DNA of 64,000 nucleotides from Cytophagales bacterium (GCA_004293905.1 RDZE01000022.1:1-64000); one strand, 5' to 3'; shown: positions 3,331 to 61,943, counted from the first letter of the stretch. Program-made: numbers and translations. The notes: generated from the sequence alone by a model not told the origin.

Positions 3331-3399
3331 GGGCTTCTATATCTTTTTGATAGTACCATAGCAAACGAAAAGCCCTGAACGATTGTTGTACTCTAAGAA

Positions 3400-4056: not shown

Positions 4057-4153
4057 AGGTATTTTTTAGAATAAAATAAAGACTTTATGAGTGATTGAAT
4101 GGCAAAATTATAAGTTTTTTCTAATTTTGTTTTCATTTATAATTTGTTTTTTT

Positions 4154-5077
4154 ATGCAAGCCCTTCTCTACTATGCACTTCTTCCGCTCGTTTATTTGCT
4201 GATATACAGTCCTTGGTGGCTTTTTTATCGCATTTCTGATGCTGTATTTATTTTTGTGTACCATATTGTTGGCTATCGCAAAAAGGTAGTAATGGCTAAT
4301 TTGCAAAAGAGTTTCCCTGAAAAAAGCCCAAAAGAAATCAAAAAAATAGCCCAAAATTTTTATTCTTATTTTGTAGATATGCTCTTGGAAAGCGTCCGCG
4401 CTATAGGTATGAGCAAAGAAAGCATGTTGCGCCGATGCCAAGTAAAAACCCCCGAAGTAGTCAATGCATTACACGCAAAAGGGCTGAATGTCATCATCGT
4501 AACAGGACATTATGGCAACACAGAATGGGCGGGCGCAGCAATGAGCCTTTCGGTAGCCCCTCCCCTATTTTTGACCTATGCCCCTTTCAAAAATCGCTAT
4601 TTTGAAAACCTCATCAAAAATGCCCGCGAAAAATTCAGCTCTACGATGGTGCCCCTTGCCGAAGTATTGAAAGTAATGGTAAAACACAAACAAAATAGTT
4701 TTCAATATGGCATCATCTTCTCTGCCGACCAAATGCCTCACCCCGAAAAAGTATATTGGACTACCTTCCTGAACCAAGAAACTGCCGTATATTGGGGCGT
4801 TGAGAAAACAGCAGTAAAATTCAATTATCCCGTAGTTTTTGGCTACATCAGACGACCAAAGAGGGGCTATTATGATATTTATATGGAATTGTTGTGTTTA
4901 GAGCCTCAAAAAACCGAAGAAGGCGAAATTTCCGAAGCCCATACCAAAGCCCTTGAAAAACAAATAGTACAATACCCCGAAATTTGGTATTGGACACACA
5001 AACGCTGGAAAAACCACCCTTGGCAGCAAAACTATAAAAAAGAGTTTTTAGCAAAAAAAGCAGGGAATAATAGTTAG
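4154..5077 (+). CDS. LpxL/HtrB-type lysophospholipid acyltransferase
   Basis: The product (307 residues from the chosen ATG) has one N-terminal TM and the LABLAT acyltransferase fold. The catalytic motif HYGNTEW (His-x4-Glu) follows an IIVTGH strand, as in lipid A late acyltransferases. Later conserved stretches are FSADQMPHPEKVYWTTFLN and a C-terminal YWTHKRWK (the common WxHRRW variant). It probably transfers a secondary acyl chain to lipid A or a related lipid at the inner membrane. A GTG at 4091 would add 21 hydrophobic residues, but ATG 4154 fits the family's usual length. The gene is divergent from exbB. Confidence 0.85.
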   Translation: MQALLYYALLPLVYLLIYSPWWLFYRISDAVFIFVYHIVGYRKKVVMANLQKSFPEKSPKEIKKIAQNFYSYFVDMLLESVRAIGMSKESMLRRCQVKTPEVVNALHAKGLNVIIVTGHYGNTEWAGAAMSLSVAPPLFLTYAPFKNRYFENLIKNAREKFSSTMVPLAEVLKVMVKHKQNSFQYGIIFSADQMPHPEKVYWTTFLNQETAVYWGVEKTAVKFNYPVVFGYIRRPKRGYYDIYMELLCLEPQKTEEGEISEAHTKALEKQIVQYPEIWYWTHKRWKNHPWQQNYKKEFLAKKAGNNS

Positions 5078-45309: not shown

Positions 45310-45328
45310 TCAATAAAAATAAAAAGTG

Positions 45329-46903
45329 ATGCGAAAAAGATTCAATGATACAGGACTTTGTATTCCTAACAAACATTTTATGGTGGATACCTCTGCCAAA
45401 ATAGAAAAAGTCATGGATTTGGTTGAAAATGGAGAGTATTTCACTATAAATCGCCCTCGTCAGTTTGGAAAAACAACTACAGCTTTTTTGTTATACGAAA
45501 ATTTACAAATCCAAAAAGAATATCTTATCATAGATTTAAGTTTTGAAGGAATTGGAGATCGGATTTTTGAAGAAGAAAAAAATATAACTTTTGGCTTTTG
45601 GCAAATGATAAGCAAACGTTTAGAACTAGCTACAGAAGAAGAATTGCACACTATTTGCGAAATGCTTTTGCCTCAAATACAAAGTTTTAAACATCTTTCA
45701 GAAAGTATTACAACCCTTGTTCAGAAGAGCCAAAGAAAAATAATACTTCTAATTGATGAAGTAGATAAGTCTAGTAATAACATTTTGTTTTTGCATTTAT
45801 TAGGAATGTTTAGAGATAAGTATTTGTTGCAAAACAGAGGTATTGACAAAAGTTTTCATTCTGTTATTTTATTGGGTGTTCACGATATTAAAAATCTAAA
45901 GCGAAAGATTCGCCCCGAAGATGCTCACTCGCTCAATAGCCCTTGGAATATTGCCGCAGATTTTACCGTAGATATGAGTTTCAGTGCCACAGAAATTCAA
46001 ACGATGCTCAAGCAATATGCTGAAGAAACCGATATAAGTATGAATATTCCTGAAATTGCGGAAAAAATTTACTATTATACTTCAGGCTATCCTTATTTGG
46101 TGAGCAAGATGTGTAAGGTAATTGATGAAATTATTTTGCCTAAAACACAGAAAAAACATTGGACTTTAGAAAACTTGGAGGAAAGTTTTAGGTACTTGGT
46201 AAACCCCAATCACACTACCACACTTTTTGATGACTTAGCCAAAAATCTGAATAACAATAGCGATTTGTATGATTTAGTATTTGATATTGTGATTAATGGC
46301 GATAAAAAGAAATTCAATTTATACAACCCCACTATAGGATTGGCAGCTACTTATGGGATTTTATCGGTTGATGAATCGGGTTTTTGCGAAGTGCATAATC
46401 GCATTTTTGAGAAAATTGTGTATGATATGATGCTTTCTAAAGAAGAAACGAGCAAAAAACAAGTCTTAGAACGTAGTTTGTACGAGGGCGAAAATGGCGA
46501 ATTATTGCTCAAGCCTGCCCTGATAGCTTTTCAAAATTTTATGCGAGAAAATCATTCTCAAAAAGACCTTAGTTTTTTGGAGCGCGAAGGCAGGCTATTG
46601 TTTTTGTCTTTTTTGAAACCAATTTTGAATGGCAAGGGCTTCGATTTCAAAGAGCCTGTGGTAGGCGATGAGCGAAGAGTGGACATTGTGATAACTTACT
46701 TACAACATAAATATGTCTTAGAATTAAAACGTTGGCAGGGCGAGAGATACCACGAAAAAGGCTTACAACAACTTAGCGATTACTTGGATTTGCACCAACT
46801 CAAAGAAGATTTTTTGCTCATTTACGATTTCCGAAAAACGAAAGAATACAAAATAGAAGACATCAAATTTCAAGACAAGGAGATTTTTGCGGTGTGGGTA
46901 TAA
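45329..46903 (+). CDS. AAA-like ATPase fused to a PD-(D/E)XK nuclease
   Basis: From ATG 45329 (a GTG one codon earlier is less likely) the protein is 524 residues. The N-terminal STAND/AAA-like ATPase has Walker A NRPRQFGKTTT (Lys48) and Walker B IILLIDEVDKS (Asp143, Glu144). The C-terminal domain has the PD-(D/E)XK core RRVDIVI...VLELKRW: Asp452, Glu465, Lys467. The layout (AAA-like + DUF1703-type nuclease) recurs in Bacteroidota and is often encoded in several copies per genome; a mobile or defensive role is suspected but not proven. It stands alone between the RRM gene and convergent rocD, and shares a bidirectional terminator with rocD. Confidence 0.85.
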   Translation: MRKRFNDTGLCIPNKHFMVDTSAKIEKVMDLVENGEYFTINRPRQFGKTTTAFLLYENLQIQKEYLIIDLSFEGIGDRIFEEEKNITFGFWQMISKRLELATEEELHTICEMLLPQIQSFKHLSESITTLVQKSQRKIILLIDEVDKSSNNILFLHLLGMFRDKYLLQNRGIDKSFHSVILLGVHDIKNLKRKIRPEDAHSLNSPWNIAADFTVDMSFSATEIQTMLKQYAEETDISMNIPEIAEKIYYYTSGYPYLVSKMCKVIDEIILPKTQKKHWTLENLEESFRYLVNPNHTTTLFDDLAKNLNNNSDLYDLVFDIVINGDKKKFNLYNPTIGLAATYGILSVDESGFCEVHNRIFEKIVYDMMLSKEETSKKQVLERSLYEGENGELLLKPALIAFQNFMRENHSQKDLSFLEREGRLLFLSFLKPILNGKGFDFKEPVVGDERRVDIVITYLQHKYVLELKRWQGERYHEKGLQQLSDYLDLHQLKEDFLLIYDFRKTKEYKIEDIKFQDKEIFAVWV

Positions 46904-48482: not shown

Positions 48483-49493
48483 CTATTCTAAATATACTAT
48501 TTTCCCTCCATTTTTGATAGAAGTTTGTGTGGCTTCTAACAATCTTACTACTTGTAATCCATCTTTGGCATCGGTGAGTGGTTTTCTTTGCTCTGTAATG
48601 GCTTTCAAAAATTCTTCTATTACCATTTGAAGCGTTTCTTTTTGATGTAACATAGGACTATACATATCGCCTGAACGGTATTGAATGAGGGTTTGGTACT
48701 CTTCCTCTTTGGTTTTTACATCTATGCCTTTGTCATAAATTTTGATTTTTTCATTGGGTTCTAAATCATCATACACTACCATTTTTTTACTTCCTGCAAT
48801 GAGTGTTTTCCTTATCTTGAGTGGAGAGAGCCAATTGAGGTGAAAGTGTGCAATGAGGTTGTTCTCGAAGGTGATGTGCACATACGCAACATCTTCAAGC
48901 CCTTTGCCCACGTGGTCAGCACCCATTGCTTGGAGGGCAAGGGGTTTTTTATCGAGCACATGAAGCATAATAGAAAAATCGTGAGGAGCTAAGTCCCATA
49001 TCACATTGACGTCGCGTTGGAAAAGACCTAAGTTAACCCTTACTGAATCATAATAATAAATATCGCCCAATTGTCCTGTTGTGATGAGTTCTTTGATTTT
49101 TCGTATGGCAGGCGTATAGATAAAAGTATGGTCTACCATTAAGGTCAGTTTTTCCCTTTGGGCTATTGCTATGAGTTCTTCGGCTTCTTGATGGGTACTT
49201 GTAAAGGGTTTCTCCACTAATACGTGTTTTTGGTGCAAAAGAGCTTGTTTGGCTAATGCATAGTGTGTGTCTACGGGTGTAGCAATGATAACGGCTTGAA
49301 TTTGAGGATTTTGCAATATATTCTCGAAAGAAGTAGCTACCTTTACACCTGAAAAATTTTGTAGTATTTTTTGTGTATTTTTCTCTTGTATATCGTAGAT
49401 GTGTACTTCTTCTACTGAAACATTGCTTAGGGCATTGCGCACCATATTGGGTCCCCAATAGCCTAAACCAACTATAGCGATTTGATACTTCAT
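48483..49493 (-). CDS. Gfo/Idh/MocA-family oxidoreductase (WlbA/WbpB-like)
   Basis: From ATG 49493 (336 residues) the protein has the N-terminal Rossmann motif IAIVGLGYWGPNMVRN and the active-site LVEKPFTSTHQEA. The C-terminal sheet has RVNLGLFQRDVNVIWDLAPH. The start at 49550 would add 19 residues before the Rossmann strand and is unlikely. Homologues include WlbA/WbpB, which oxidise C3 of UDP-GlcNAcA before amination by a DegT enzyme. It lies divergently and 123 bases from a sugar operon containing a DegT aminotransferase and a WbpG-like amidotransferase, which makes that role attractive. Confidence 0.85.
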   Translation of the reverse strand: MKYQIAIVGLGYWGPNMVRNALSNVSVEEVHIYDIQEKNTQKILQNFSGVKVATSFENILQNPQIQAVIIATPVDTHYALAKQALLHQKHVLVEKPFTSTHQEAEELIAIAQREKLTLMVDHTFIYTPAIRKIKELITTGQLGDIYYYDSVRVNLGLFQRDVNVIWDLAPHDFSIMLHVLDKKPLALQAMGADHVGKGLEDVAYVHITFENNLIAHFHLNWLSPLKIRKTLIAGSKKMVVYDDLEPNEKIKIYDKGIDVKTKEEEYQTLIQYRSGDMYSPMLHQKETLQMVIEEFLKAITEQRKPLTDAKDGLQVVRLLEATQTSIKNGGKIVYLE

Positions 49494-49539: not shown

Positions 49540-49570
49540 TTGCAAAGCATTTTATTTTTAAATAATTTTG
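49540..49570 (+). promoter_or_regulatory. Promoter of the 12-gene sugar-tailoring operon
   Basis: TTG at 49540-49542, 20 bases, then TAATTTTG at 49563-49570: a full match to the Bacteroidota consensus. The leader to the GTG start at 49617 is about 45 bases. Confidence 0.7.
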
Positions 49571-49616
49571 CGAGAACTAACTTTACCTTGTTATTTTATT
49601 TATTGTTTCCATCTGC

Positions 49617-51107
49617 GTGCATACCAAACATTATACCCTCTCTTTTCTCATTCTTTTAGTTTATGGCTGTTTGCAAATATGGATTGGCAATATTATTCCT
49701 TTTTGTAATGGGTATGGGCAAGATGGTTGCTTGTATGGTGCTATTACTGAAAATTTTTACCAAAAAGTAATTACTGAAGGGCTCAATGCTTATCATGTAC
49801 AGCGACTTCTACCTCTTTTTATAGTACATTACCTATTAAAATTTTTACAAATTCCGTTGGAGGCTTTTTATATCATTAAAAGTTTTCAGATTTTTAATTT
49901 GTTGATCCTATTGGGCATTCAAACAATTTGGTGGAAGATTTGTAAGTTACAAACACTCAACCATACATTGTTTTGGGTTGGGCTTATTCTTGCTTTGTTG
50001 AATTTTCAGATTGGGTACAATGCTTTTTACTATCCTATTGCAACCGATTATTTGACTTATCTTTTGGGTTTTTTGTTGTTGTACTTTTATTTGCGCAATT
50101 GGCTTTGGGGTATGAGCGTGGTGAGCTTTTTAGGTGCATTTTGCTGGCCTTCTTTTTTATATTTTAGCTTTTTCCTGATGCTTTTCCCCTACCCTACACA
50201 TCAACTATCTACTTTTTATGAAAAATACAAAACTACTTTCAATAATTGGATAGTAGCTGCTGTGATTACTATTGTTTATTTTGTTTTTGTTGCTTCGCAC
50301 ATACAAGGCAATGGTATTTATTGGTCTGTGGGTTTGTATGAAGACAAGATAGAAGGCAATTTTTATAGTTTTTATGTGGCTTTGGTCATCAATGTAGCTC
50401 TTTTATTTGCTTTTCTTCGTTTTTATGTACCTGCTTTTCGCCTTATGGGGCTTTTAATCGCGGAGCACTTTCTTAAAATTGTATGGTTACGGGTATTAGC
50501 TTTTATAGTGTTGTATTTAATTGTGAATGGTTTAGTAGCGCAACTGAGCCTGCCCGAACCTAACTACATAGACCCGCTCCAATTGCCTAAAACGATAGCC
50601 TTTTATAGTGTGCTTTCGCCTCTGTTCTATTTGGTAGAGGCTACTACTTCTATGGGTCTTATTTTCTTGTTTATTATCCTGTATTTTAAGCATTTTTTCC
50701 AACGAAGTGTACTGCATTTTGGCACAAGCATTTACATTACCTTTTTTGTATTTGTGATACTTCGCTTTGTGCCCGAAGTACGTTCTACTATCAATTTCCA
50801 CCCTTTTATTGTATTCTTGGTTTGCTATTCTCTGCAAGATTTTTTTATTTCTAAACGATTTTTAATTACCTTAGGGCTTCTTTCTTTTTTTCTCTCAAGG
50901 GTATATCTTTCTTTTTTACCCATTCCTCCTTCTTGGCACGATACTTCTTTTGGACTCATGGAGGGCATTTTTATACACACTTTGGGCTGGACACGCGATT
51001 TTTATCTTTGGGCAAAACTTATTACATTTGTACTATTAGGCACATTATTAGTGCTATCAAAGAAGAAAATTAAAGAAAATTTTTATATTCAATCATATTT
51101 AAAATAG
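49617..51107 (+). CDS. Polytopic membrane protein, GT-C glycosyltransferase-like
   Basis: The 496-residue protein has about 11-12 TMs. The first periplasmic loop carries CNGYGQDGCLYG and NAYHVQRLLP; an acidic residue in that loop followed by a QR-containing segment is typical of GT-C enzymes that move sugars from lipid-linked donors. A second acidic pair lies in ATDYLTYLLG. I cannot name a family. It starts with GTG; without it the first TM would be lost. It opens an operon that also has a polyprenyl-phosphate GT2 and a DMT-type 4-TM protein, so it may be the final transferase. The next gene is 10 bases away. Confidence 0.65.
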   Translation: MHTKHYTLSFLILLVYGCLQIWIGNIIPFCNGYGQDGCLYGAITENFYQKVITEGLNAYHVQRLLPLFIVHYLLKFLQIPLEAFYIIKSFQIFNLLILLGIQTIWWKICKLQTLNHTLFWVGLILALLNFQIGYNAFYYPIATDYLTYLLGFLLLYFYLRNWLWGMSVVSFLGAFCWPSFLYFSFFLMLFPYPTHQLSTFYEKYKTTFNNWIVAAVITIVYFVFVASHIQGNGIYWSVGLYEDKIEGNFYSFYVALVINVALLFAFLRFYVPAFRLMGLLIAEHFLKIVWLRVLAFIVLYLIVNGLVAQLSLPEPNYIDPLQLPKTIAFYSVLSPLFYLVEATTSMGLIFLFIILYFKHFFQRSVLHFGTSIYITFFVFVILRFVPEVRSTINFHPFIVFLVCYSLQDFFISKRFLITLGLLSFFLSRVYLSFLPIPPSWHDTSFGLMEGIFIHTLGWTRDFYLWAKLITFVLLGTLLVLSKKKIKENFYIQSYLK

Positions 51108-51117
51108 ATAAACACCT

Positions 51118-52272
51118 ATGCACTTACCTTTGTCAGAAAAAGTGGAAAATTTAAGCCAAGCTATTTCCATCAAATACAATAATATTGTCTATGAACTCAA
51201 AGAAAAAGGAGAAAAAATCATTACTTTGTCTTTAGGTGAGGCTTTCTTTGATATTCCATTATTCCCTTTAGATAAATTACCCTTAGATAAGATATATCAT
51301 TATACTCACTCTAAAGGACTTTTAGAACTGAGAAAAAAAATTGCAGAATACTATCAGCATCATTTTAAGGTAACCGCCAACGCTGAAAAAGAGGTATTAA
51401 TTACAGCAGGCTCTAAGGCAGCCATTTATTTCTGCCTTTTAGCTATTGTAGAACCTCAAAGCGAGGTCATCATTCACGAACCAGCTTGGGTTAGTTATAC
51501 AGAAATGGTAAAACTCTGTGGAAGTAATTCGGTCTTAGTTCCTTACACAGAAAAATTTACAGATTATGAAAAATATATCACCCCTAACACGCGTGTTATC
51601 ATTCTAAATAACCCTAATAATCCTTCTGGTAAAACTTATACACATGAAGAATTAAAGTATTTGGTTGACTTGTGTAAAAAACACAATTTGTATCTTCTTT
51701 CAGACGAAGCATACAGCGATTTTACAAAACAAAAAGATGATTTTATATCCGCAGGTGTTTTTGAAAAGGAATGGCAGAATGTAATTGTTTGCAATTCTAT
51801 TTCTAAAAATTTTGGAATTTCAGGTTGGCGGATAGGGTATGTATTTGCTAATGAACAAATTATACAAGAGATTCTAAAAATCAATCAACATGTAATTACC
51901 TGCCCCCCTTCTATCCTTCAATATTACTTAATAGCCTATTTTGACGATATTATCAACATCACTTATGACCAAATTCATGCTTTAATGGAAACGAGGGAAA
52001 AAGTAAGTAGTTATATGAAAGAAATAGGTTTAGAAGCCTTAGAAGGTAATTCTACTTTCTATTTCTTTGTATCAATAGCCCCTACTCTACTCGATTCGGA
52101 AGCATTTTGTGATAAACTATTATATGAATACAAAGTATGCGCCGTTCCCGGAATAGGTTATGGCAAATCTTGCGATAAATTTGTACGAATTTCTATCGGT
52201 ACTGAAAGTTTAGAAAGTATAAAAGAAGGTCTAAAAGCCATAAAAACATTAATAGATATTACTTCAAAATAA
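51118..52272 (+). CDS. PLP-dependent class I/II aminotransferase
   Basis: The 384-residue fold-type I aminotransferase has LNNPNNPSGKTYT, DEAYSDF, and the PLP Lys in NSISKNFGISGWRIGY with the substrate-binding Arg at RISIGT near the C-terminus. It resembles aspartate or aromatic aminotransferases; the specific amino acid is unknown. In this operon it is followed by an ATP-grasp ligase (11 bases) and could supply or modify an amino acid or keto acid for the ligase. Confidence 0.88.
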   Translation: MHLPLSEKVENLSQAISIKYNNIVYELKEKGEKIITLSLGEAFFDIPLFPLDKLPLDKIYHYTHSKGLLELRKKIAEYYQHHFKVTANAEKEVLITAGSKAAIYFCLLAIVEPQSEVIIHEPAWVSYTEMVKLCGSNSVLVPYTEKFTDYEKYITPNTRVIILNNPNNPSGKTYTHEELKYLVDLCKKHNLYLLSDEAYSDFTKQKDDFISAGVFEKEWQNVIVCNSISKNFGISGWRIGYVFANEQIIQEILKINQHVITCPPSILQYYLIAYFDDIINITYDQIHALMETREKVSSYMKEIGLEALEGNSTFYFFVSIAPTLLDSEAFCDKLLYEYKVCAVPGIGYGKSCDKFVRISIGTESLESIKEGLKAIKTLIDITSK

Positions 52273-52283
52273 ACTAAATAAAG

Positions 52284-53486
52284 ATGCAAAAAAGTGTTCT
52301 TTTTTTAGGAGCAAATCGTCTGATGAGCAATGCCATCAAGATGGTAAAAGCATTAGGACATCGTGTTGTAGTAATGGATAAAAATGAAAATGCATTTGCC
52401 TTCAAGTACGCAGACCAAGTAGCCATCGTAGACTTTTTTCACCCCGAAAAAGTCTACCAATATTTAAACGAGTCCAAAGAATCCATCCATGCCGTAATTG
52501 CAGCCAATGATGCAGGTGTACGCAGTGCTGCCTATGTGAGTGAAAAACTTAATATTATTAATCACTCCATAGAAACTTCATTGGCTTGCACTGATAAAGG
52601 ACTCATGAGGACAAAATGGAAAGAGCAAAATATTTCTCAACCTCCATTTGAAATAGTGGACAACGCCAATGCCTTAGAAAACGCCATTAACAGAATAGGA
52701 ATACCTTGTGTTATAAAGCCTTGCTACAGTTGGGGTAGTCGTGGAGTGAGTATTATTTCAGAACCCCAACACCTACAAAAAGCAATTCAATTTACAACCC
52801 AAAACGACTACGAAGGAAGACATTATATTGTAGAAAAAGCCATAGAAGGTACAGAGTATACCGTAGAAGGATTGGCAAAAAATGGTAATATTAGTATTTT
52901 AACTACCTCTGACAAAGTACCTCAAAACCACATTATTTATCGTGTGGCTATGCAACTGAACTATCCTGCGCAACTTTCCAATGAAAAATTAGAAACACTC
53001 CAACAATTAGTAAAAGATGCTGCAAAAGTGTTAGGTATTGAAAATGGAGCTATCCATGCAGAGTGTATTTATGATGGTGAAAAATTTCAGATGGTAGAGT
53101 TAGCAGGAAGACCAGGCGGGGGGCATATTTTCGGTTATATTGTAGAAGCAGTCAGTGGTATTTGTATGCCACAAGTACTCACCCAAATATTATTGAATGA
53201 GAACCCCAATATAGAAGCTACTCAGCAAAAGGGTGCCTGTTATAAGTTCTTTGCTCCTGCCCAATCAGGCAAATTCATAGGTATTGAAGGATTAGAAAAA
53301 GCTCAACAAAACCCCTATTTGTTAGATATAGGTTTCGATATGATTCCAGGTACTTTTTTCGAGGGAGAAGTTGCTACTGATATGGGACGTCCTGGATTTA
53401 TTGTAAGCAAAGGATCAAATCGAGAAGATGCAATTAAAAATGCAGAACGAACACATCAATCATTGGTCATCAAGATAGAAAATTAA
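52284..53486 (+). CDS. ATP-grasp ligase
   Basis: The 400-residue protein is a carbamoyl-phosphate-synthase/PurK-type ATP-grasp enzyme: a pre-ATP-grasp domain (VLFLGANRLMSNAIKMVKAL), the ATP-binding PCVIKPCYSWGSRGVSII loop, and the Mg-binding ENGAIHAECIYDG...MVELAGRPGGG. It joins a carboxylate to an amine or similar nucleophile through an acyl phosphate. The substrate is unknown. BacD-like amino acid ligases share the layout. The amidohydrolase-fold gene follows after 4 bases. Confidence 0.85.
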   Translation: MQKSVLFLGANRLMSNAIKMVKALGHRVVVMDKNENAFAFKYADQVAIVDFFHPEKVYQYLNESKESIHAVIAANDAGVRSAAYVSEKLNIINHSIETSLACTDKGLMRTKWKEQNISQPPFEIVDNANALENAINRIGIPCVIKPCYSWGSRGVSIISEPQHLQKAIQFTTQNDYEGRHYIVEKAIEGTEYTVEGLAKNGNISILTTSDKVPQNHIIYRVAMQLNYPAQLSNEKLETLQQLVKDAAKVLGIENGAIHAECIYDGEKFQMVELAGRPGGGHIFGYIVEAVSGICMPQVLTQILLNENPNIEATQQKGACYKFFAPAQSGKFIGIEGLEKAQQNPYLLDIGFDMIPGTFFEGEVATDMGRPGFIVSKGSNREDAIKNAERTHQSLVIKIEN

Positions 53487-53490
53487 AACA

Positions 53491-54282
53491 ATGAATATAC
53501 CTGAGATTATAGATGCCAATACACACATTACGCGCAGCGGAAAATGGTTTGAAACTACACGAGATGCTTCTTTAAATGCACTCATCAAAGAGATGGAAAA
53601 CGCTAATATTAACAAAAGCCTCTTGGTTGCACTTCCTGAAGTAATAGAAAACGAGTTCATCTTAGAATGTTGTGAGAAATACCCTAAAAAACTAATACCA
53701 ATCGCTGCTTTAAATCCTAAAAAACTATACAGAGCCACTCTTGCTAGTACATTATTGGAAATAAAAGAGAAAAATTTTAAAGCCATCAAACTCCATAATA
53801 GACTCTCTCAACATAACCCTTTAGATGATGATTTTTTGGCACTTTTAGAAATAAACAATTCATTGGAAAATCCTAATGTTATTTTTATATGTAGCTTGTT
53901 TTACTCCAAAGATTTATACTTTGACAAAACACCTCCTCAAATCATTCATTTTCTAAGTAATCAGTTCCCTAAAACCACCTTCTTATTTATGCATGCTGGC
54001 GGTAGTTGGTTCTTACAAGTTGTAGAAGCCATAAGAGATTGTCCAAATGCCTATCTCGACCTCTCTTTTAGTATATCAAAATACAAAGAAAGCAGCTTCA
54101 GTATAGATTTAAAATACCTTATCAATACTTTTGACCAAAGACTTGTTTGGGGCTCAGATTTCCCCGAATACCTTCCTAAGGCTGCCAAACAAGATTTTTT
54201 ATCGCTCACTGATGCAACCATACCTTCAGAAAAAATACAAAATATTATGGCTAATAACATAAAAAAAATATTAAATCTTTGA
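53491..54282 (+). CDS. Amidohydrolase-2-fold protein
   Basis: The 263-residue TIM-barrel protein is of the amidohydrolase 2 (PF04909) type: N-terminal DANTHITR (Asn-x-His where His-x-His is usual), LFMHAGGSW in the middle and LVWGSDFPE near the end with the catalytic Asp. The missing first His makes the metal site unusual; it may hold one metal or none. Typical reactions are decarboxylation or hydrolysis of small carboxylates and lactones. It ends in TGA and is followed after 14 bases by the methyltransferase. Confidence 0.75.
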   Translation: MNIPEIIDANTHITRSGKWFETTRDASLNALIKEMENANINKSLLVALPEVIENEFILECCEKYPKKLIPIAALNPKKLYRATLASTLLEIKEKNFKAIKLHNRLSQHNPLDDDFLALLEINNSLENPNVIFICSLFYSKDLYFDKTPPQIIHFLSNQFPKTTFLFMHAGGSWFLQVVEAIRDCPNAYLDLSFSISKYKESSFSIDLKYLINTFDQRLVWGSDFPEYLPKAAKQDFLSLTDATIPSEKIQNIMANNIKKILNL

Positions 54283-54296
54283 TCCCTTTCCTCATC

Positions 54297-54959
54297 ATGA
54301 ACCAACACGACAAAGAAATTTATTTGAAAAGATACAACGAAAGATTAGAATTGTATGGCGACTCCCCCGAAACACTTGGTTGGGGCAAAAATGCACGTCA
54401 AGAACTACGTTTTCAAGTACTTAGTGATTTAGCAACCCAAAATAAATTTTCTTCTATCTTAGATGTAGGTTGCGGCTTTGCAGATTTATATGGATTTCTA
54501 AAAAATAAAAATTGGCAAGGACAGTATTTAGGCATTGATATCAACAAAAATTTACTGAATATAGCCCTACAAAAATACCCTCAAGTTTCAGTCAAACAAC
54601 AAGATATTTTACAAGAAGAGCTTAATCAATCTTATGATTATGTAATAGCTTCTGGCATATTCAATGCTAAACTAGAAAAAGAAAACAACTATACATATAT
54701 AGAGGCGATGTTAAGAACGATGTACTCTATAGCTAAGGAAGCAGTTTGTGTAGATTTTCTAAGTACTTATGTAGATTATATGCAAGAAATTGCTTGGCAT
54801 AGTAACCCAGAAGAAATCATAAAAATAGCCCATACAATCAGTAAACGATTTAATGTTCGTTATGATTATATGCCCTATGAGTTTAGCTTAATCTTGTATA
54901 AAAATCAAACTATATCAAACATTAATACATTTGAAGGTTTCAACTTAAAACATTCATAA
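54297..54959 (+). CDS. Class I SAM-dependent methyltransferase
   Basis: From ATG 54297 (220 residues) the protein has motif I ILDVGCGFADLYGF, an acidic residue at the end of the second strand (GIDINK), and DYVIASGIFNAKLE as the motif IV region. A TTG six codons earlier is unlikely to be used. It resembles small-molecule or lipid methyltransferases of sugar clusters. The substrate is unknown. Confidence 0.82.
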   Translation: MNQHDKEIYLKRYNERLELYGDSPETLGWGKNARQELRFQVLSDLATQNKFSSILDVGCGFADLYGFLKNKNWQGQYLGIDINKNLLNIALQKYPQVSVKQQDILQEELNQSYDYVIASGIFNAKLEKENNYTYIEAMLRTMYSIAKEAVCVDFLSTYVDYMQEIAWHSNPEEIIKIAHTISKRFNVRYDYMPYEFSLILYKNQTISNINTFEGFNLKHS

Positions 54960-54973
54960 TCAATTAAAAAACC

Positions 54974-55909
54974 ATGAAATTAGACATTGTCATACCCGCC
55001 TATAATGAGCAAGACAATATAGCCACTACCATAGAAGACATACAAAATGCCATAGCAAAAATTCCAATTATAGAAACACATCAAATTTATGTAATAGACG
55101 ACCACTCAGAAGACAATACTTTTGAAACTGTTAGGGACATTCGCCAAGACAACATACACTGCCTAAGACTCAGTAAAAGAAGTGGAAGTCATACTGCCAT
55201 TAGAGCAGGTATTGAGGCTTCTAAAGGCGATGCCTTGCTTTGTATCGCTGCTGATGGGCAAGACAATGCAGGCTCTATTTTGGAAGAAATGCTCCACAAA
55301 TTAAAACAAAAAAATTACATCGTTTGGGGAATGCGCCAAAGCCGTAAAAACGAGCCACTAAGCGTCAAATTATTTGCTATTTTGTTCTATAAGATTGTTT
55401 TTTGGCTCACACAAGTAAAAAATAGTCATATCAACTATGCCAATGTTACTTTTTTTGTGCTCGATAAGAAAGTAGTCAAAGCAATTAAGCACTTTACAGA
55501 AACCAATACCTCTCTGTTAGGCTTACTACTTTGGTCAGGCTTCAAACAAGACTATGTAGAGTATGAAAGAAAAGAAAGAGTGCATGGAAAATCAAAATGG
55601 AACTTTCGCAGCCGTTGGAAATTGGCTAAAGATTGGATTTTGTCTTTTTCTGCCTTACCTTTGCGCCTGATTACCTATATTGGTATTTCCTTCGCAAGTT
55701 TAGGTTTTATGTATGCCTTAGTGATTGTTGTGTTAGCCCTAATGGGCAAAACAGCCCCAGGATTTGCTGAGCCCGTAACATTAGCCTTACTCATCGGAGG
55801 TGTACAAATGACTATGTTAGGTATTTTAGGGGAATATCTTTGGCGTATATTAGATGAAAGCAGAAAAAGACCCCTATATTTTATTGAAGAATCTACAAAA
55901 GAAACTTAA
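54974..55909 (+). CDS. GT2 polyprenyl-phosphate glycosyltransferase (GtrB/ArnC/DPM1-like)
   Basis: The 311-residue protein has an N-terminal GT-A domain (VIPAYNEQDNI, VIDDHSEDNT, the DxD-type AADGQDNAG) and two C-terminal TM segments (about 235-290). Family members transfer a sugar from a nucleotide donor to undecaprenyl or dolichyl phosphate on the cytoplasmic face. It is directly followed (3 bases) by a 4-TM DMT protein, as ArnC is with ArnE/F and GtrB with GtrA. Confidence 0.88.
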   Translation: MKLDIVIPAYNEQDNIATTIEDIQNAIAKIPIIETHQIYVIDDHSEDNTFETVRDIRQDNIHCLRLSKRSGSHTAIRAGIEASKGDALLCIAADGQDNAGSILEEMLHKLKQKNYIVWGMRQSRKNEPLSVKLFAILFYKIVFWLTQVKNSHINYANVTFFVLDKKVVKAIKHFTETNTSLLGLLLWSGFKQDYVEYERKERVHGKSKWNFRSRWKLAKDWILSFSALPLRLITYIGISFASLGFMYALVIVVLALMGKTAPGFAEPVTLALLIGGVQMTMLGILGEYLWRILDESRKRPLYFIEESTKET

Positions 55910-55912
55910 AAC

Positions 55913-56299
55913 ATGAAAAATTTTATTATCAATTATGGTTTAATCATTGCCTCAGCTTTTTTAGACTCCTATGCTGCATTTGTAATGAAAAAACAATTTA
56001 ACAAATTAGGATTGATTGACTACTCCACTCTCGAATCTGTACTGATATACCTTTATAAATTTATCCAAAACCCACTCCTCATCACCGCAGTCATAGGTTT
56101 CATAGTTGCGCCATTGCTTAGTTTCTTGGCATTCAACCGCTTAGAACTTTCCGTAGGTTATCCCATTTTAGTAGGGTTTCACCTTGTCTTTGGTTTTATG
56201 TTTAGCGCATTATTTTTAGAAGAAAATCTAACCACCTATAAAATAATAGGTTGTATTCTTATATTCATTAGTCTTTATTTGTTTTATCGTACAAGTTAA
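55913..56299 (+). CDS. 4-TM DMT/EamA-SMR-like membrane protein
   Basis: The 128-residue protein has four TMs: IASAFLDSYAAFVMKK in TM1, then FIVAPLLSFLAFNRLELSVGYPILVGFH and a final IIGCILIFISLYLFY. This is the half-size DMT fold of SMR exporters and the ArnE/ArnF flippase subunits. Its place after the polyprenyl-phosphate GT2 suggests flipping of a lipid-linked sugar rather than drug export; this is inferred. The nitrilase gene follows after 5 bases. Confidence 0.8.
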   Translation: MKNFIINYGLIIASAFLDSYAAFVMKKQFNKLGLIDYSTLESVLIYLYKFIQNPLLITAVIGFIVAPLLSFLAFNRLELSVGYPILVGFHLVFGFMFSALFLEENLTTYKIIGCILIFISLYLFYRTS

Positions 56300-56304
56300 C
56301 TATT

Positions 56305-57138
56305 ATGAAAATAGCCTTAGGACAATTATTAGTAGAGGGCGGAGAGCCTGAAAGAAACTTGGAAAGAGCTGAAAAAATGATAAAGGAAGCTGCTAACGCA
56401 CAAGCCGACCTTATTCTTCTTCCAGAAACATTAGACTTTGCTTGGACGCACCCGAGCGCACTACAAGAAGCCGAACCCATTCCGGGTAAATACAGCGATT
56501 GGTTATGCAAAGCCGCAAAAGAGCACAATATCTATGTTTGTGCAGGTTTGACCGAAAGAAAAGAAGGGAAAAACTACAATACAGCCATTTTCATAGACAA
56601 AAATGGCGAAATACAATACACCTGTCAAAAAATCAATCTCCTTGAAGTAGAATTTCCTTACTACGAAGTAGGGCAAAAAATACAAGTAATAGACACCGAA
56701 TTTGGCAAAATAGGCATTAATGTATGTGCCGATAATTATTTAGATGGCTTGCACATTGGTCATGCCTTAGCGCATTTGGGGGCGCAAATGATTCTTTCTC
56801 CTTCTTCTTGGACAGTAGACTACCACATCACGGAAGGGCAAGACCCCTACCACGAAAAATGGATAAAACCTTACAGCATTTTGGCAAAACTCTATGGCAT
56901 TGCTGTCATCGGAACTACAAGCGTAGGTTACATCGTAGGAGGTCCTTATGAAGGAAAAAAAATGGTAGGATGCTCCTTAGCTATAGGGCAGGAAGGCATC
57001 TTAGCACGTGGCGACTTTAACGAGTTTGCAGGCGAAATTACCTACCTTGAACTTCAAGTACCACAAAGAACCGAAAAAGGAACACAAATAGGCAAAAGAC
57101 TGAAAGAAAAAGGTTACAACTTTGACGTAAAAATATGA
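56305..57138 (+). CDS. Nitrilase-superfamily amidase, possible ammonia donor
   Basis: The 277-residue carbon-nitrogen hydrolase has the full triad Glu41 (LPETLD), Lys109 (QKINLL) and Cys141 (NVCADN), and the family beta-sandwich. Relatives include omega-amidases, N-carbamoyl amidases and the glutaminase domains of NAD synthetases. Its stop overlaps the start of the next gene (57135) by 4 bases, so translation is coupled to a PP-loop sugar amidotransferase. A glutaminase role feeding ammonia to that enzyme is my inference; cleaving an amide on a pathway intermediate is the alternative. Confidence 0.85.
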   Translation: MKIALGQLLVEGGEPERNLERAEKMIKEAANAQADLILLPETLDFAWTHPSALQEAEPIPGKYSDWLCKAAKEHNIYVCAGLTERKEGKNYNTAIFIDKNGEIQYTCQKINLLEVEFPYYEVGQKIQVIDTEFGKIGINVCADNYLDGLHIGHALAHLGAQMILSPSSWTVDYHITEGQDPYHEKWIKPYSILAKLYGIAVIGTTSVGYIVGGPYEGKKMVGCSLAIGQEGILARGDFNEFAGEITYLELQVPQRTEKGTQIGKRLKEKGYNFDVKI

Positions 57139-58325
57139 GCAATATAACTATTAACACAAATACAGACACTAATTACCAGTGCTGTACCCGTTGTATCTGC
57201 GATACAACCATGCCTGGTATTACATTTGACAATACAGGCGAGTGCAATTTCTGTAAATTACACGATAAATTGGACAAAGCCTTTTCTTTAGATGAAAAAG
57301 GACAAAAGAAACTACAACGTTTAGTTAGTACGATTAAGAAGAGCGGCAAAAATAAAAAATACGACTGTGTTGTAGGCATTAGTGGAGGACGCGACAGTAT
57401 GTATACACTCTACTATACCGTAAAAATATTAGGCTTACGTCCCTTAGCAGTCCACTTCAATGATGGATTTGGAAACCCCATTGCAGGCGAAAACATGCGA
57501 AAAGGAACTAAAATCTTGGGTGTAGACCTCATCACTATCACCTCTGATTGGCGCGAATCTAAAGACCTTAAAATTGCTTTTCTGAAAGCCTCTGTGCCCG
57601 AATCAGGAGTAGCAACAGATATTGGTATTGCCACAGCACTTTATGGAGTAGCTGCCAAAGAAAACATCAAATATGTACTCATAGGGCAATCTTTTCGTAC
57701 AGAGGGCATTTCTCCACTTTCTTGGAATTACATGGACGGAAAGTACCTCAAATCAGTTCATAAACTATTTGGCACTGTGCCTTTGCGTAAATGGACACCT
57801 AACGACCCGGGTTTTCACTTAGACCTCCGCGAAGTTTTTTACTATGTCATCATGAGAGGGATTAAAACAATTCCTATACTATATTTAGTAGATTATGTAC
57901 GAAAAGATGTTGATGCTATCATTTCTAAAGAACTCGAATGGGTCAATACAGGCGCGCATTATTTTGATGATTTATGGCAAAGTTTAGCAACTAACCTACA
58001 TAGAACCAAATTTAACATTGATAGGCGTTTGTTCAATTATTCTGCTTTAGTACGCTCTGGCCAGATGACGCGCGAAGAGGCTCTCGAGCGCACCAAAGAG
58101 GTTTATGTGATAGAAGACCCTAAAGTAATAGACCTTTGTATCAAACGTTTAGGGCTTACACGCGAAGAATACGAAAGCATCATAGACCAACCCGTCAAAA
58201 CATTTCGCAACTATAACACAAACTATAGTATTATGCGTTGGCTCAAATTCCCTATTTGGGTAGCCAGCAAACTCAATATACTACCCGGCACAGCCTACGA
58301 TAAATATTTTAATTGCGGAAAATAA
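57135..58325 (+). CDS. N-acetyl-sugar amidotransferase (WbpG/PseA-like)
   Basis: The 396-residue protein has the N-terminal zinc-type Cys pairs (Cys17, Cys20, Cys37, Cys40 in CTRC...CNFC) and the PP-loop SGGRDS (83-88). This is the WbpG/PseA family, which activates an N-acetyl group with ATP and replaces oxygen with ammonia to give an acetamidino sugar. In known systems ammonia comes from a HisH-like class I glutaminase (WbpH). None is present here; the gene overlaps a nitrilase instead. The downstream SDR and DegT genes provide nucleotide-sugar context. Confidence 0.88.
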   Translation: MSNITINTNTDTNYQCCTRCICDTTMPGITFDNTGECNFCKLHDKLDKAFSLDEKGQKKLQRLVSTIKKSGKNKKYDCVVGISGGRDSMYTLYYTVKILGLRPLAVHFNDGFGNPIAGENMRKGTKILGVDLITITSDWRESKDLKIAFLKASVPESGVATDIGIATALYGVAAKENIKYVLIGQSFRTEGISPLSWNYMDGKYLKSVHKLFGTVPLRKWTPNDPGFHLDLREVFYYVIMRGIKTIPILYLVDYVRKDVDAIISKELEWVNTGAHYFDDLWQSLATNLHRTKFNIDRRLFNYSALVRSGQMTREEALERTKEVYVIEDPKVIDLCIKRLGLTREEYESIIDQPVKTFRNYNTNYSIMRWLKFPIWVASKLNILPGTAYDKYFNCGK

Positions 58326-58335
58326 ACCCAAAACA

Positions 58336-59352
58336 ATGAGTACAAAAGGCAATATACTAATCACAGGCGGGGCAGGGTTCATAGGCTCACACCTTACCGA
58401 TTATCTTTTGGCAAAGCAATACAAAGTAACCGTGTTGGATAATTTCGCCAATGGAAAAAAAGAAAACCTCTTAGATGCCGAAAAAAATCCAAACTTTAGA
58501 TGCATAGAAGGGGATATATTGGATAAAGATACTTGTCAAAATAGCTTAAAAGACGTTGATTATGTTTTCCATTTGGCTTGTTTGGGAGTAAGGCATTCTA
58601 TTCATAGCCCCTTCGAAAACCACAGAGTCAATGCCGAAGGAACACTCAATGTATTAGAGGCTTCAAAACAACACAATATCAAGCATTTTTTCTACATTTC
58701 CACTTCCGAAGTGTACGGACGCACCCATACCTTTCCTATAGAAGAAAACGCCCCTACCCTACCCCTTACAGTGTATGGTGCAAGCAAGTTAGCGGGAGAA
58801 CACTATGCGCACGCATTTTATGAATGTTATCAACTTCCTATTACTGTGTTGCGTATTTTTAATAATTATGGAGAACGCGCTCACTATGAAGGAGATGCAG
58901 GGGAATTAATTCCACGTAGCATCATCAAAATACTCTACCATGAAACGCCTGTTATTTTTGGCGATGGCTCCATCACACGCGATTTTTTCTATGTAAAAGA
59001 CACCGCCAAAGCCCTTCACAACATGTTAGAAATTAGTCAAAAAAGCCCTGAAAATATACTTAACCAAACTTTTAATATAGGCACAGGCATAGAGTACAGC
59101 ATCAAAACAATGGTAGAAAAACTACTGCAACTCATGCAAAAAGAGGCATTGGGCATACAATACCAAACCGATAGAGTCGCCGATGTTCCTCGATTATGGG
59201 TCAATGCTGATAAATTCAAAAAAATATCCCATTTCCAAGCCGATTACGACCTCGAGACAGGCTTGCAAAATACCATTCAGTACTATACAGAAAAAGTAAA
59301 AAATGCCGATAACTTACTCCAAGAAGTAAAATTATTCAATTGGGAAAAATAA
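58336..59352 (+). CDS. NAD-dependent nucleotide-sugar epimerase/dehydratase (extended SDR)
   Basis: The 338-residue extended SDR has the NAD-binding GGAGFIGSHL, the catalytic Ser in STSEVYG and the Tyr-x3-Lys in VYGASKLAG, followed by LRIFNNYGERA and the nucleotide-sugar region with TRDFFYVKDTAKAL. It is close to UDP-sugar 4-epimerases, 4,6-dehydratases and UDP-glucuronate decarboxylases. The exact reaction cannot be decided by eye. It is 10 bases after the amidotransferase and 15 before the DegT gene. Confidence 0.88.
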   Translation: MSTKGNILITGGAGFIGSHLTDYLLAKQYKVTVLDNFANGKKENLLDAEKNPNFRCIEGDILDKDTCQNSLKDVDYVFHLACLGVRHSIHSPFENHRVNAEGTLNVLEASKQHNIKHFFYISTSEVYGRTHTFPIEENAPTLPLTVYGASKLAGEHYAHAFYECYQLPITVLRIFNNYGERAHYEGDAGELIPRSIIKILYHETPVIFGDGSITRDFFYVKDTAKALHNMLEISQKSPENILNQTFNIGTGIEYSIKTMVEKLLQLMQKEALGIQYQTDRVADVPRLWVNADKFKKISHFQADYDLETGLQNTIQYYTEKVKNADNLLQEVKLFNWEK

Positions 59353-59367
59353 AACACCATACAACAA

Positions 59368-60513
59368 ATGAAAGTAGCATTTGCAAAACCTTATTTAGGG
59401 CACGAAGAAGCTCAATATGCCTATGATACCATACTCACCAGTTGGGTAACTCAAGGACCTAAAGTACAAGAATTTGAAGAAAAATTTGCACAGCGCACAG
59501 GCGCAAAATACGCCACCGCTGTTTCTAATTGTACTACTGCCCTCCATTTAGCCATGATTGTTGCAGGCATACAAGCAGGCGATGAAGTAATATGCCCCTC
59601 TATGTCTTATATAGCCACTGCCAACTGCATACGCTATGTAGGCGCGACCCCCGTATTTGCAGAAGTGAACGAAGACTATAACATAGACCCCAATGATGTA
59701 ATTGCTAAAATCACCCCTAAAACCAAAGCCATTCTCATAGTACATCAGATGGGTATGCCCGCCGATATAGACGCTTTCAAAACCATTTGCGAACAGCACC
59801 ACCTACAACTTATTGAAGATGCTGCCTGTGCCATTGGCTCAAGTTATAAAGGCAAACCCATAGGACAACATTCCGATTTGGTATGCTTTTCTTTTCACCC
59901 CCGAAAAGTAATCACTACTGGCGATGGTGGAATGATTACAACCAACCGCCCTGACTATGACAAACGCCTAAAAATACTCCGACAACACGGAATGTCTGTC
60001 AATGACCGCGCAAGACACGAAGCCAAAGACCTCATTTTTGAAGACTATGAAGAGGTAGGTTATAACTATCGTATGACCGACATACAAGCCGCCGTAGGTA
60101 TCAAACAATTAGAACGCCTTGACTGGTTCATAGAGCAAAGACACCAAACTGCAAAATGGTACAAAGAAGAGCTGAACGAGATACCTCATTTGCAACTTCC
60201 CTCACATAATGAAGATTTTTTTACTACCTATCAAAGTTATAGTGTATTGCTAAAAAAAGGATTTCCCATAGAGCGCGATGCACTAATGAGAGCACTGCAC
60301 CAAAGAGGAATCGCCACACGCAGAGGCATTGTACTCATTCATCAACAAATTGCTTACCAACAAGAATTTTCTTCGGTAGCACTCCCTCATTCCGAATATC
60401 TAAGCAATCAAAGTATACTTTTGCCTATGTATGTAGGACTAACACAAGCAGAAATACAATACGTATGCAATACTCTTAAAGAAATCATTCAAACTATTCC
60501 CTCTTTTTCATGA
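59368..60513 (+). CDS. DegT/DnrJ/EryC1 sugar aminotransferase
   Basis: The 381-residue PLP enzyme has Lys180 in SFHPRKVITTGDGG (Schiff base), the cofactor-binding IEDAACAIGSSYKG and VSNCTTALHLA, and the C-terminal IATRRG region. These enzymes aminate a keto group on a nucleotide sugar, for example at C3 in WbpE or C4 in ArnB. The regiochemistry is not readable here. Its stop overlaps the next start by 4 bases. Confidence 0.92.
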   Translation: MKVAFAKPYLGHEEAQYAYDTILTSWVTQGPKVQEFEEKFAQRTGAKYATAVSNCTTALHLAMIVAGIQAGDEVICPSMSYIATANCIRYVGATPVFAEVNEDYNIDPNDVIAKITPKTKAILIVHQMGMPADIDAFKTICEQHHLQLIEDAACAIGSSYKGKPIGQHSDLVCFSFHPRKVITTGDGGMITTNRPDYDKRLKILRQHGMSVNDRARHEAKDLIFEDYEEVGYNYRMTDIQAAVGIKQLERLDWFIEQRHQTAKWYKEELNEIPHLQLPSHNEDFFTTYQSYSVLLKKGFPIERDALMRALHQRGIATRRGIVLIHQQIAYQQEFSSVALPHSEYLSNQSILLPMYVGLTQAEIQYVCNTLKEIIQTIPSFS

Positions 60514-61898
60514 CCTCTATCAAAGATTTTTTGTACCAATGGCCTCAAGAAACCCTTGAAAACAACCCCCATTGGCAAACAAGCCAATTATCTCCTGAGT
60601 ATTTCACACGTAAACTTCCCGAAAGCCGTGAGGAATTAGCCAAAGATAGCCGCTGGCCTGCTTTTTTCCCCTCTGCCATCAGCCTCGTTACTGTTCAGTA
60701 CGAAGACCAAACCGCCATTGAAAAAGTAGTAGGAGCTTCCATTGTCAATCGTTTTCCTTATATCATCGCACTTAGTTTTGCTAAAGAAGACCTCTCCCAA
60801 CGCCACCACCAACGTAGCCACTTCACTGAACTGATAGAAAAAAGCAAATCTGTAGCCATTCAGTTTTTACCACCTAACGATACTTTGCAAAAAATAATGC
60901 AAACCATTGTTCAAAGTAAAGATGAACAAACTACCAAGCGACTCCAACAAATAGGCGTGCCCATCAGAAAGGCGCATAGTAACAATGCACCCGTTTTTAC
61001 AGAGGCTTATATGGTTTATGAAGCAACATTAGTAAACCCTACTCAAGATTTTGAAGGCAACGCTATTTTTCAACAGCCTTATCAAGATGTAGGAAGCCAT
61101 CGCATTTATTTTTTTGAAATAGAGGCTATTCAATTAAAAACAGAAATTGCACAAGGTAAAGAACAAATTTATTGGAAAAGCCTACCCGCTTGGCAGGGAA
61201 TGACTTTTCAAAAAACGGCACAAGATATAGAACAAGCCCAACTCAAAGCCAAATATACTAAAGGCTACTCTCCTAATTATAAATTTCCAGCGAAAAATAC
61301 TGTAAGTTTCGAGAGTCATCACTCCGAAAATAACATGGAAATACAAATAATAAAAAAATGGAAATACGAAGAAATTAAATTAGACAACGATGCGGCACGC
61401 TGGCCTTGTTTTTTTCCTTCCTCCTTAGGTATGATTACCTCTTATGACGACAATCAAACCCCTAATCTAATGCCTTGCGGTTCTACTACCTTAGTAAGCC
61501 GTCACCCTCTCATCATAAGCCCATGTATATGCTATGCGAGCATCAATGATAGGTATGCCAAACGTAGCAGTCTCGAAAACATTCGTAAAACCAAAAAATT
61601 CGGTTGTGGTGTAGCTTATATTGATGATGCCCTCACAGAAGCCATCAAATACAGTGGCAGCCTCTCCATCACTCAAGACCCTCAAAAAATTCAGAATAGT
61701 GGCTTAAAAACGCTCCCTCACCCACATGCGCCTATCATACACGACCTCCCTATTCATTTTGATTGTGAGGTTGTAGGAGAAATACTATTGGGCACTCATA
61801 CTATGTTATTGGGTGAGGTAAAACAAATTTATGTGCATAAAAACCTTAGCCCTTCTGCTCCTTTTGAATGGTATCCTTGGTCAGATATTGTGGTATAA
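60510..61898 (+). CDS. Tandem flavin-reductase-like (FMN split-barrel) protein
   Basis: The 462-residue protein has two split-barrel units of the flavin reductase-like group: one at about 1-230 with RWPAFFPSAIS (48-58) and one at about 270-462 with RWPCFFPSSLG (297-307), joined by a Lys-rich linker. Each unit keeps the loop with VNRFPYIIA or VSRHPLIIS that contacts FMN. The second ends in GTHTMLLGEVKQIYV. Single-unit proteins are the rule, so the fusion is unusual. It may reduce flavin or a sugar-pathway substrate. It is translationally coupled to the DegT gene and is the last gene before the terminator. Confidence 0.75.
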   Translation: MTSIKDFLYQWPQETLENNPHWQTSQLSPEYFTRKLPESREELAKDSRWPAFFPSAISLVTVQYEDQTAIEKVVGASIVNRFPYIIALSFAKEDLSQRHHQRSHFTELIEKSKSVAIQFLPPNDTLQKIMQTIVQSKDEQTTKRLQQIGVPIRKAHSNNAPVFTEAYMVYEATLVNPTQDFEGNAIFQQPYQDVGSHRIYFFEIEAIQLKTEIAQGKEQIYWKSLPAWQGMTFQKTAQDIEQAQLKAKYTKGYSPNYKFPAKNTVSFESHHSENNMEIQIIKKWKYEEIKLDNDAARWPCFFPSSLGMITSYDDNQTPNLMPCGSTTLVSRHPLIISPCICYASINDRYAKRSSLENIRKTKKFGCGVAYIDDALTEAIKYSGSLSITQDPQKIQNSGLKTLPHPHAPIIHDLPIHFDCEVVGEILLGTHTMLLGEVKQIYVHKNLSPSAPFEWYPWSDIVV

Positions 61899-61901
61899 AT
61901 G

Positions 61902-61943
61902 AAAAGCATCGCTTTGATTCAAAAACAAAGCGATGCTTTTTTT
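61902..61943 (+). terminator. Terminator of the 12-gene operon
   Basis: A 15-base perfect stem (61902-61916 with 61926-61940) with a 9-base loop is followed by a T run. The A run on the other side may also help end the convergent pfkB-type gene. Confidence 0.92.

Follow-up and report, generated by a model that had tools for sequence, protein, structure and literature searches.

What does a twelve-gene operon of unfamiliar composition from a Cytophagales bacterium make, and where does its sugar amidotransferase obtain ammonia? The operon lies in a 64,000-nucleotide stretch of DNA (GCA_004293905.1 RDZE01000022.1:1-64000), referred to here as the window, and its genes are numbered g1 to g12. Its likely product is an unusual sugar rich in nitrogen, assembled on a membrane lipid and moved to the cell surface. 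Our main reading, to which we give a probability of about 0.6, is an Arn-like lipid-carrier sugar-tailoring operon with N-acyl amidination, in which the nitrilase-like g8 provides ammonia to the amidotransferase g9. New here is that g8 seemingly replaces HisH/HisF, the usual ammonia supplier of WbuX, in several phyla.

Anatomy of the operon

Gene families were assigned by Pfam/NCBIfam profile matches, which were compared with curated cut-offs. The features are as follows.

48483–49493, minus strand: GFO/IDH/MocA dehydrogenase, divergent; the closest NCBIfam model is UDP-GlcNAc 3-dehydrogenase, below its cut-off
49540–49570, plus strand: candidate Bacteroidota-type promoter TTG-N20-TAATTTTG, found by pattern, in the divergent intergenic region
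49617–51107, plus strand: g1, multi-pass membrane protein with 11 predicted transmembrane (TM) helices, presumed GT-C glycosyltransferase
51118–52272, plus strand: g2, class I/II aminotransferase (Aminotran_1_2; Pfam/NCBIfam)
52284–53486, plus strand: g3, ATP-grasp ligase of the L-amino-acid-ligase type (LAL_C2; Pfam/NCBIfam)
53491–54282, plus strand: g4, Amidohydro_2 protein (Pfam)
54279–54959, plus strand: g5, SAM-dependent methyltransferase (Pfam/NCBIfam); an ATG start is possible at 54297
54974–55909, plus strand: g6, GT2 like PgfS/ArnC, polyprenyl-phosphate sugar transferase type with C-terminal TM helices (Pfam/NCBIfam)
55913–56299, plus strand: g7, 4-TM EamA protein, ArnF-like half flippase (Pfam/NCBIfam, TM prediction)
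56305–57138, plus strand: g8, CN-hydrolase of the nitrilase superfamily, tetrad E41, K109, E116, C141; proposed glutaminase for g9
57135–58325, plus strand: g9, WbuX/WbpG-type N-acetyl sugar amidotransferase (tetracysteine motif, PP-loop SGGRDS)
58336–59352, plus strand: g10, extended SDR of the LegB/RmlB-like 4,6-dehydratase type (motif TSEVYG)
59368–60513, plus strand: g11, DegT sugar aminotransferase, PseC/ArnB/LegC-like (Pfam/NCBIfam)
60510–61898, plus strand: g12, tandem Flavin_Reduct protein, two Flavin_Reduct stretches with RWPxFFPS in each half
about 61901–61941, plus strand: intrinsic terminator hairpin with T tract, 3′ of g12, found by fold energy

The open reading frame listing of the window shows 12 consecutive plus-strand frames at 49617–61898, in agreement with the tight spacing described in the original prediction. 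Intergenic gaps are 3–15 bases, except that g8/g9 and g11/g12 each overlap by 4 bases. The g4/g5 junction is a 4-base overlap if g5 starts at TTG 54279 and a 14-base gap if it starts at ATG 54297. The twelve genes presumably form a single transcript. The predicted promoter sequence is indeed present at 49540–49570, though there are 6 matches to the pattern in the window versus 2.4 expected from shuffles, and another of these (55633) falls within g6; thus the pattern is weak by itself, and the promoter owes its credibility as a candidate chiefly to lying in the short intergenic region between the divergent genes. The terminator predicted to be strong shows a fold energy of −21.6 kcal/mol (z = −6.0), and 0 of 200 shuffles gave an equally good hairpin. 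It was missed by the pattern scan because its loop is 9 nt and the scan permits loops of 3–8 nt. The divergent dehydrogenase, predicted to lie 123 bases away, does so if its start is ATG 49493. On the far side of the dehydrogenase, a PF09820 AAA-ATPase-like protein (window 45326–46903) adjoins an ornithine aminotransferase gene.

The predicted gene list agrees with the Pfam/NCBIfam matches for the aminotransferase, ATP-grasp, Amidohydro_2, methyltransferase, GT2, EamA, WbuX, SDR, DegT and Flavin_Reduct proteins. The list left g8, the most informative gene, unnamed, and its GT-C-like assignment of g1 is presumptive: as a candidate ArnT-type GT-C transferase, g1 has 11 predicted TM helices and no family match in Pfam/NCBIfam, and its AlphaFold2 model, made from a two-row alignment, has a pLDDT of 40. 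The g12 model, also from a two-row alignment, has a pLDDT of 38. Solved relatives of g3 are 4dim and 3vot. The N-terminal motif of g4 is DANTH; the Amidohydro_2 family usually displays a metal-binding His (DxHxH-type motif) where g4 has Asn, and the metal site may be altered.

In the proposed pathway, g10 and g11 would form a nucleotide-linked 4-amino sugar, with possible C3 chemistry by the divergent dehydrogenase. The sugar is likely 4-amino-4,6-dideoxy or 2,4,6-trideoxy, without a firm assignment since the best scores of g10 (LegB 206 bits, cut-off 475; dTDP-glucose 4,6-dehydratase 204 bits, cut-off 365) and g11 (PseC 340 bits, cut-off 424) are all below the cut-offs. The products of g2, g4 and g5 may build or modify an acid, which the g3 ATP-grasp enzyme would ligate to an amino group. 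Next, g6 would attach the sugar to polyprenyl phosphate, g7 would flip it and g1 would transfer it. In the g9 reaction, ATP would activate the N-acyl carbonyl oxygen and NH would replace the oxygen, yielding an amidine; g8, instead of HisH/HisF, would hydrolyse an amide, most likely glutamine, and pass the ammonia to g9. If the sugar comes from UDP-GlcNAc, the target of g9 may be the 2-acetamido group or the acyl group added by g3. We infer the sugar identity, the order of steps, the roles of g1–g5 and g12, the glutaminase activity, the g8–g9 complex and the amidine product from the gene content and its comparison with other loci. A pure O-antigen (Wzx/Wzy) cluster was considered and rejected, as no such flippase or polymerase family is found in the operon.

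Proposed ammonia supply to the WbuX-type enzyme

Against the WbuX/N-acetyl sugar amidotransferase model TIGR03573, g9 scores 225.3 bits (cut-off 203.2), and it carries the CxxC...[GN]xCxxC motif and the SGGxDS PP-loop. The usual HisH/HisF partner genes are absent and g8 is found instead; the partners are not part of the TIGR03573 sequence definition. Acetamidino sugars are the reported products of WbpG and of WbuX of E. coli O145 (PMC10607449). The P. aeruginosa loci wbpG, hisF2 and hisH2 follow one another directly (PMC4783410).

A search of genome contigs with the g8 alignment yielded 118 relatives, 80 of which were kept as loci. These consist of 47 Hymenobacter loci and 33 others: Bacteroidota MAGs, Omnitrophota, and single loci titled Opitutia, Nealsonbacteria, Deltaproteobacteria and Acidobacteria. 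A WbuX gene is situated within 500 bp of the g8 relative, on the same strand, in 78 of the 80, and the phyla showing this linkage include Bacteroidota, Omnitrophota, Verrucomicrobiota and Myxococcota. HisH/HisF is present in none of the 80 loci within stretches of about 4–19 kb, a result that is weaker for short contigs. The comparison set was 32 other WbuX rows from the order of the window (L007 and L106–L135). Thirty of these adjoin HisH and/or HisF (26 both, 3 HisH only, 1 HisF only) and two have neither, most of these loci being only 3–4 kb; a g8-like gene lies beside none of the 32. Thus g8 is linked to g9 across phyla and, in the sampled loci, the two kinds of partner are mutually exclusive. 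Given this replacement pattern, the simplest reading is that g8 takes the HisH/HisF role. The pairwise divergences of g8 and g9 are correlated (r = 0.75, 0 of 999 permutations), which shared descent alone could also give. In one Omnitrophota locus (L048:8992–14274) the CN-hydrolase and WbuX are separated by three genes. Relatives of g8 were not found in viral contigs, and those in plasmids are all less than 60% identical (best rows 26–31%). A search of open-licence PMC text found no paper on a nitrilase or carbon-nitrogen hydrolase with a sugar amidotransferase.

The g8 sequence displays a CN_hydrolase domain with the C-E-K triad and a second Glu, as in the nitrilase-like class IV glutaminase. 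E41, K109 and C141 are kept in 81 of 81 proteins and E116 in 78, with Gly in the other three. The class IV glutaminase is that of NAD synthetase, is also found as a separate subunit, and in the glutaminase classification is listed for NAD synthetase only (PMC3376133); NAD synthetase contains a tunnel for ammonia (PMC6946656). The genome also encodes a separate two-domain NadE of 624 aa, whose glutaminase domain shows Glu after the catalytic Cys, the residue that is Glu177 in M. tuberculosis NAD synthetase (PMC6946656). In the 81 g8 proteins this residue is Ala (78) or Ser (3). It therefore gives no support for glutamine recognition, and another amide donor is possible.

The absence of this Glu also suits a different role for g8, as an amidase or nitrilase acting on its own to trim or mature the acyl group, or to reverse the amidine; g9 would then draw on free ammonia. 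Most PDB relatives of g8 are amidases and nitrilases, and use of free ammonia is reported for single-domain NAD synthetases (PMC3376133). We consider this role unlikely. Replacement of HisH/HisF by g8 is near-complete, the pair persists despite swaps of gene order, and the three contexts in which it is found (below) share no acyl-transfer gene, all of which point to a role of g8 in the WbuX reaction itself. Judged on these comparisons, g8 is most likely a class-IV-type glutaminase supplying ammonia to WbuX.

The WbuX proteins partnered with a CN-hydrolase (CN-type) also differ in sequence. The PP-loop residue R (SGGRDS) is present in 78 of 79 CN-type proteins and in 1 of 30 of the HisH/F type, and about 20 columns, this one included, separate the CN-type from 17 sister rows. 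In a tree of 73 WbuX rows, a single branch (support 81/78) divides the CN-partnered rows from the rest, and 0 of 500 shuffles were as clustered by partner. Support for a single origin of the CN-type is moderate. Hymenobacter sequences nest beside those of the window and of Flavobacteriales.

The pair is not restricted to sugar operons. In 13 loci (L028–L031, L041, L066, L067, L079, L088, L092, L098, L103, L104) it is directly followed by a NodU/CmcH-type carbamoyltransferase (PF16861, PF02543), identified by Pfam in five loci and by phmmer in the remainder. The g8/g9 order is swapped in five loci of this group, with the pair still together, and the WbuX proteins of the group form, with L078, one well-supported branch (99/99). 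In the 47 Hymenobacter loci (among L026–L102) the pair stands alone without sugar genes near. The pair adjoins a large divergent open reading frame in nine Hymenobacter regions taken from whole genomes (L006, L018–L025); beside the pair at L006:9799–12048 this frame is valyl-tRNA synthetase (valS). GT2 proteins elsewhere in Hymenobacter genomes are only 29–35% identical. The pair can thus occur independently of the lipid-carrier block. Five remaining non-Hymenobacter loci show it in other contexts.

The carbamoyltransferase loci, the solitary Hymenobacter pair and the changed PP-loop with about 20 altered columns would also be expected if the CN-type WbuX were a general amidine- or guanidine-forming amidotransferase, reused across pathways, and g9 did not act on a sugar N-acyl group, e.g. 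converting a ureido to a guanidino group after a carbamoyltransferase. This appears improbable for the operon, as g9 exceeds the WbuX model cut-off and the window and 15 other loci place the pair in or at the edge of a nucleotide-sugar, lipid-carrier block.

Recurrence of the block in other genomes

The recurrent set consists of the GFO dehydrogenase, SDR, DegT, ArnC-like GT2, ArnF-like EamA, CN-hydrolase, WbuX and a multi-pass membrane protein, found together in Omnitrophota, Bacteroidota and one Verrucomicrobiota genome. In 15 of the 33 non-Hymenobacter loci, g8–g9 is situated within or at the edge of this block, although in three of them (L046, L053, L056) only EamA is seen with the pair; the L053 and L056 contigs begin there. 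Homologues of the dehydrogenase with 43–53% identity occupy the same block in other phyla. The richest locus, L100 (Omnitrophota), contains g1 (28% identity, at 3172–4683), g6, g7, g8, g9, g10, g11 and the dehydrogenase; L080 (Opitutia) contains g6, g8–g12 and the dehydrogenase. Conserved synteny of at least eight of the twelve genes, proposed originally as a check, was thus narrowly missed, the best locus having 7 of 12 plus the dehydrogenase. A conserved core of about half of the operon exists, and the full twelve-gene set is not conserved.

The claim of a full set fails at g2–g5, which occur near the block in none of the 80 related loci, and at g12, which has a relative in one (L080:13083–14480, 47% identity, between SDR and DegT). 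Proteins of the g12 type, with RWPxFFPS in each half, are found only in the window and in this Opitutia genome. Neither of two genome draws, 241 genomes from the order of the window and 296 from its phylum, contains a g12 relative outside the genome of the window, nor do plasmids. Relatives of g3 are likewise absent outside that genome in the phylum draw (296) at E ≤ 1e-50, and iterated profile searches for g3 and g4 gave no relatives. Iterated-profile matches for g2 and g5 were discarded, having drifted into the DegT and GT2 families, i.e. homologues of g11 and g6.

With g2–g5 missing from all 80 loci, and g3 and g12 from the other sampled genomes of the phylum at the thresholds used, the operon might be a lineage-specific patchwork of one functional block (g1 and g6–g11) and recent separate insertions (g2–g5, g12). 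We regard this as doubtful. Genes g2–g5 separate g1 from g6 and no gap along this stretch exceeds 14 bases, the L080 relative of g12 also lies between SDR and DegT, and g2–g5 fill a slot that in other loci holds an acyltransferase. In related loci the slot between DegT and GT2 is often taken by a formyltransferase gene or one of N-acyltransferase type: some, such as L034, encode a hexapeptide acyltransferase that weakly matches PglD_N, and others a formyltransferase (L075, with its cluster mate in L071). In the window, g2–g5 hold this position before GT2. In the main reading, g3 would accordingly acylate the amine of the sugar with a carboxylic or amino acid instead of acetyl or formyl. The product originally proposed, a polyprenyl-linked amidino or aminoacyl sugar, is still the best reading and gains from the recurrence of the block in other phyla; its full gene set is not syntenic, and it leaves g8 unnamed.

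Comparison with known systems

WbpG/HisH2/HisF2 of P. aeruginosa, WbuX of E. coli O145 and LpNASAT (8wex) resemble g9 in the tetracysteine motif and SGGxDS. Like g9, they are WbuX-family enzymes in sugar-biosynthesis operons. In contrast to these systems, the partner of g9 is a nitrilase-superfamily hydrolase, the PP-loop is SGGRDS and about 20 residues are clade-specific. The pair also resembles the two-subunit glutamine-dependent NAD synthetase, which combines a nitrilase-like subunit with an amidotransferase of the ATP-pyrophosphatase fold (PMC3376133, PMC6946656), whereas the synthetase partner of g8 is WbuX, not NadE, and Ala/Ser replaces Glu after Cys.

Tentatively, and at somewhat less than even odds, the pair may be a second amidotransferase with a nitrilase-type glutaminase beside NAD synthetase: a portable amidine-forming module of CN-hydrolase and SGGRDS-type WbuX used in three contexts, namely in lipid-carrier sugar operons, with carbamoyltransferases (possibly forming guanidino groups) and alone. 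In the window it would act with an ATP-grasp ligase to give a new amidino, aminoacyl surface sugar. If so, a second, independent recruitment to a sugar amidotransferase would widen class IV of the glutaminases. An adjoining CN-hydrolase and SGGRDS PP-loop would then be a signature predicting amidine-bearing surface sugars, of use in phyla where hardly any examples, or none, are known. Gene pairs to which family models give just the names carbon-nitrogen hydrolase and N-acetyl sugar amidotransferase would also be accounted for.

The best NCBIfam match of g6 is PgfS of polyprenyl glycosylation systems, at 181 bits far below the family cut-off of 500, and the neighbouring genes differ from those of PgfS systems. 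The Arn system consists of ArnA-B-C-E/F-T and adds Ara4N to lipid A. As in Arn-type systems, the operon unites a DegT aminotransferase, an ArnC-like GT2 and an EamA flippase, giving the likeness of a DegT-made 4-amino sugar, GT2 loading on polyprenyl phosphate, an EamA flippase and a multi-pass transferase candidate; two related loci add an N-formyltransferase gene to this likeness. The Arn models score 107 (ArnC, cut-off 529), 27 (ArnF, cut-off 99) and 287 (ArnB, cut-off 631), all below curated cut-offs, so the operon is Arn-like but not Arn, and an ordinary Arn operon was rejected on these scores. Compared with Arn, the N-acyl group is probably kept and amidinated (no ArnD is seen), and this operon adds the ligase genes g2–g5, a LegB-like SDR and a flavin-reductase protein.
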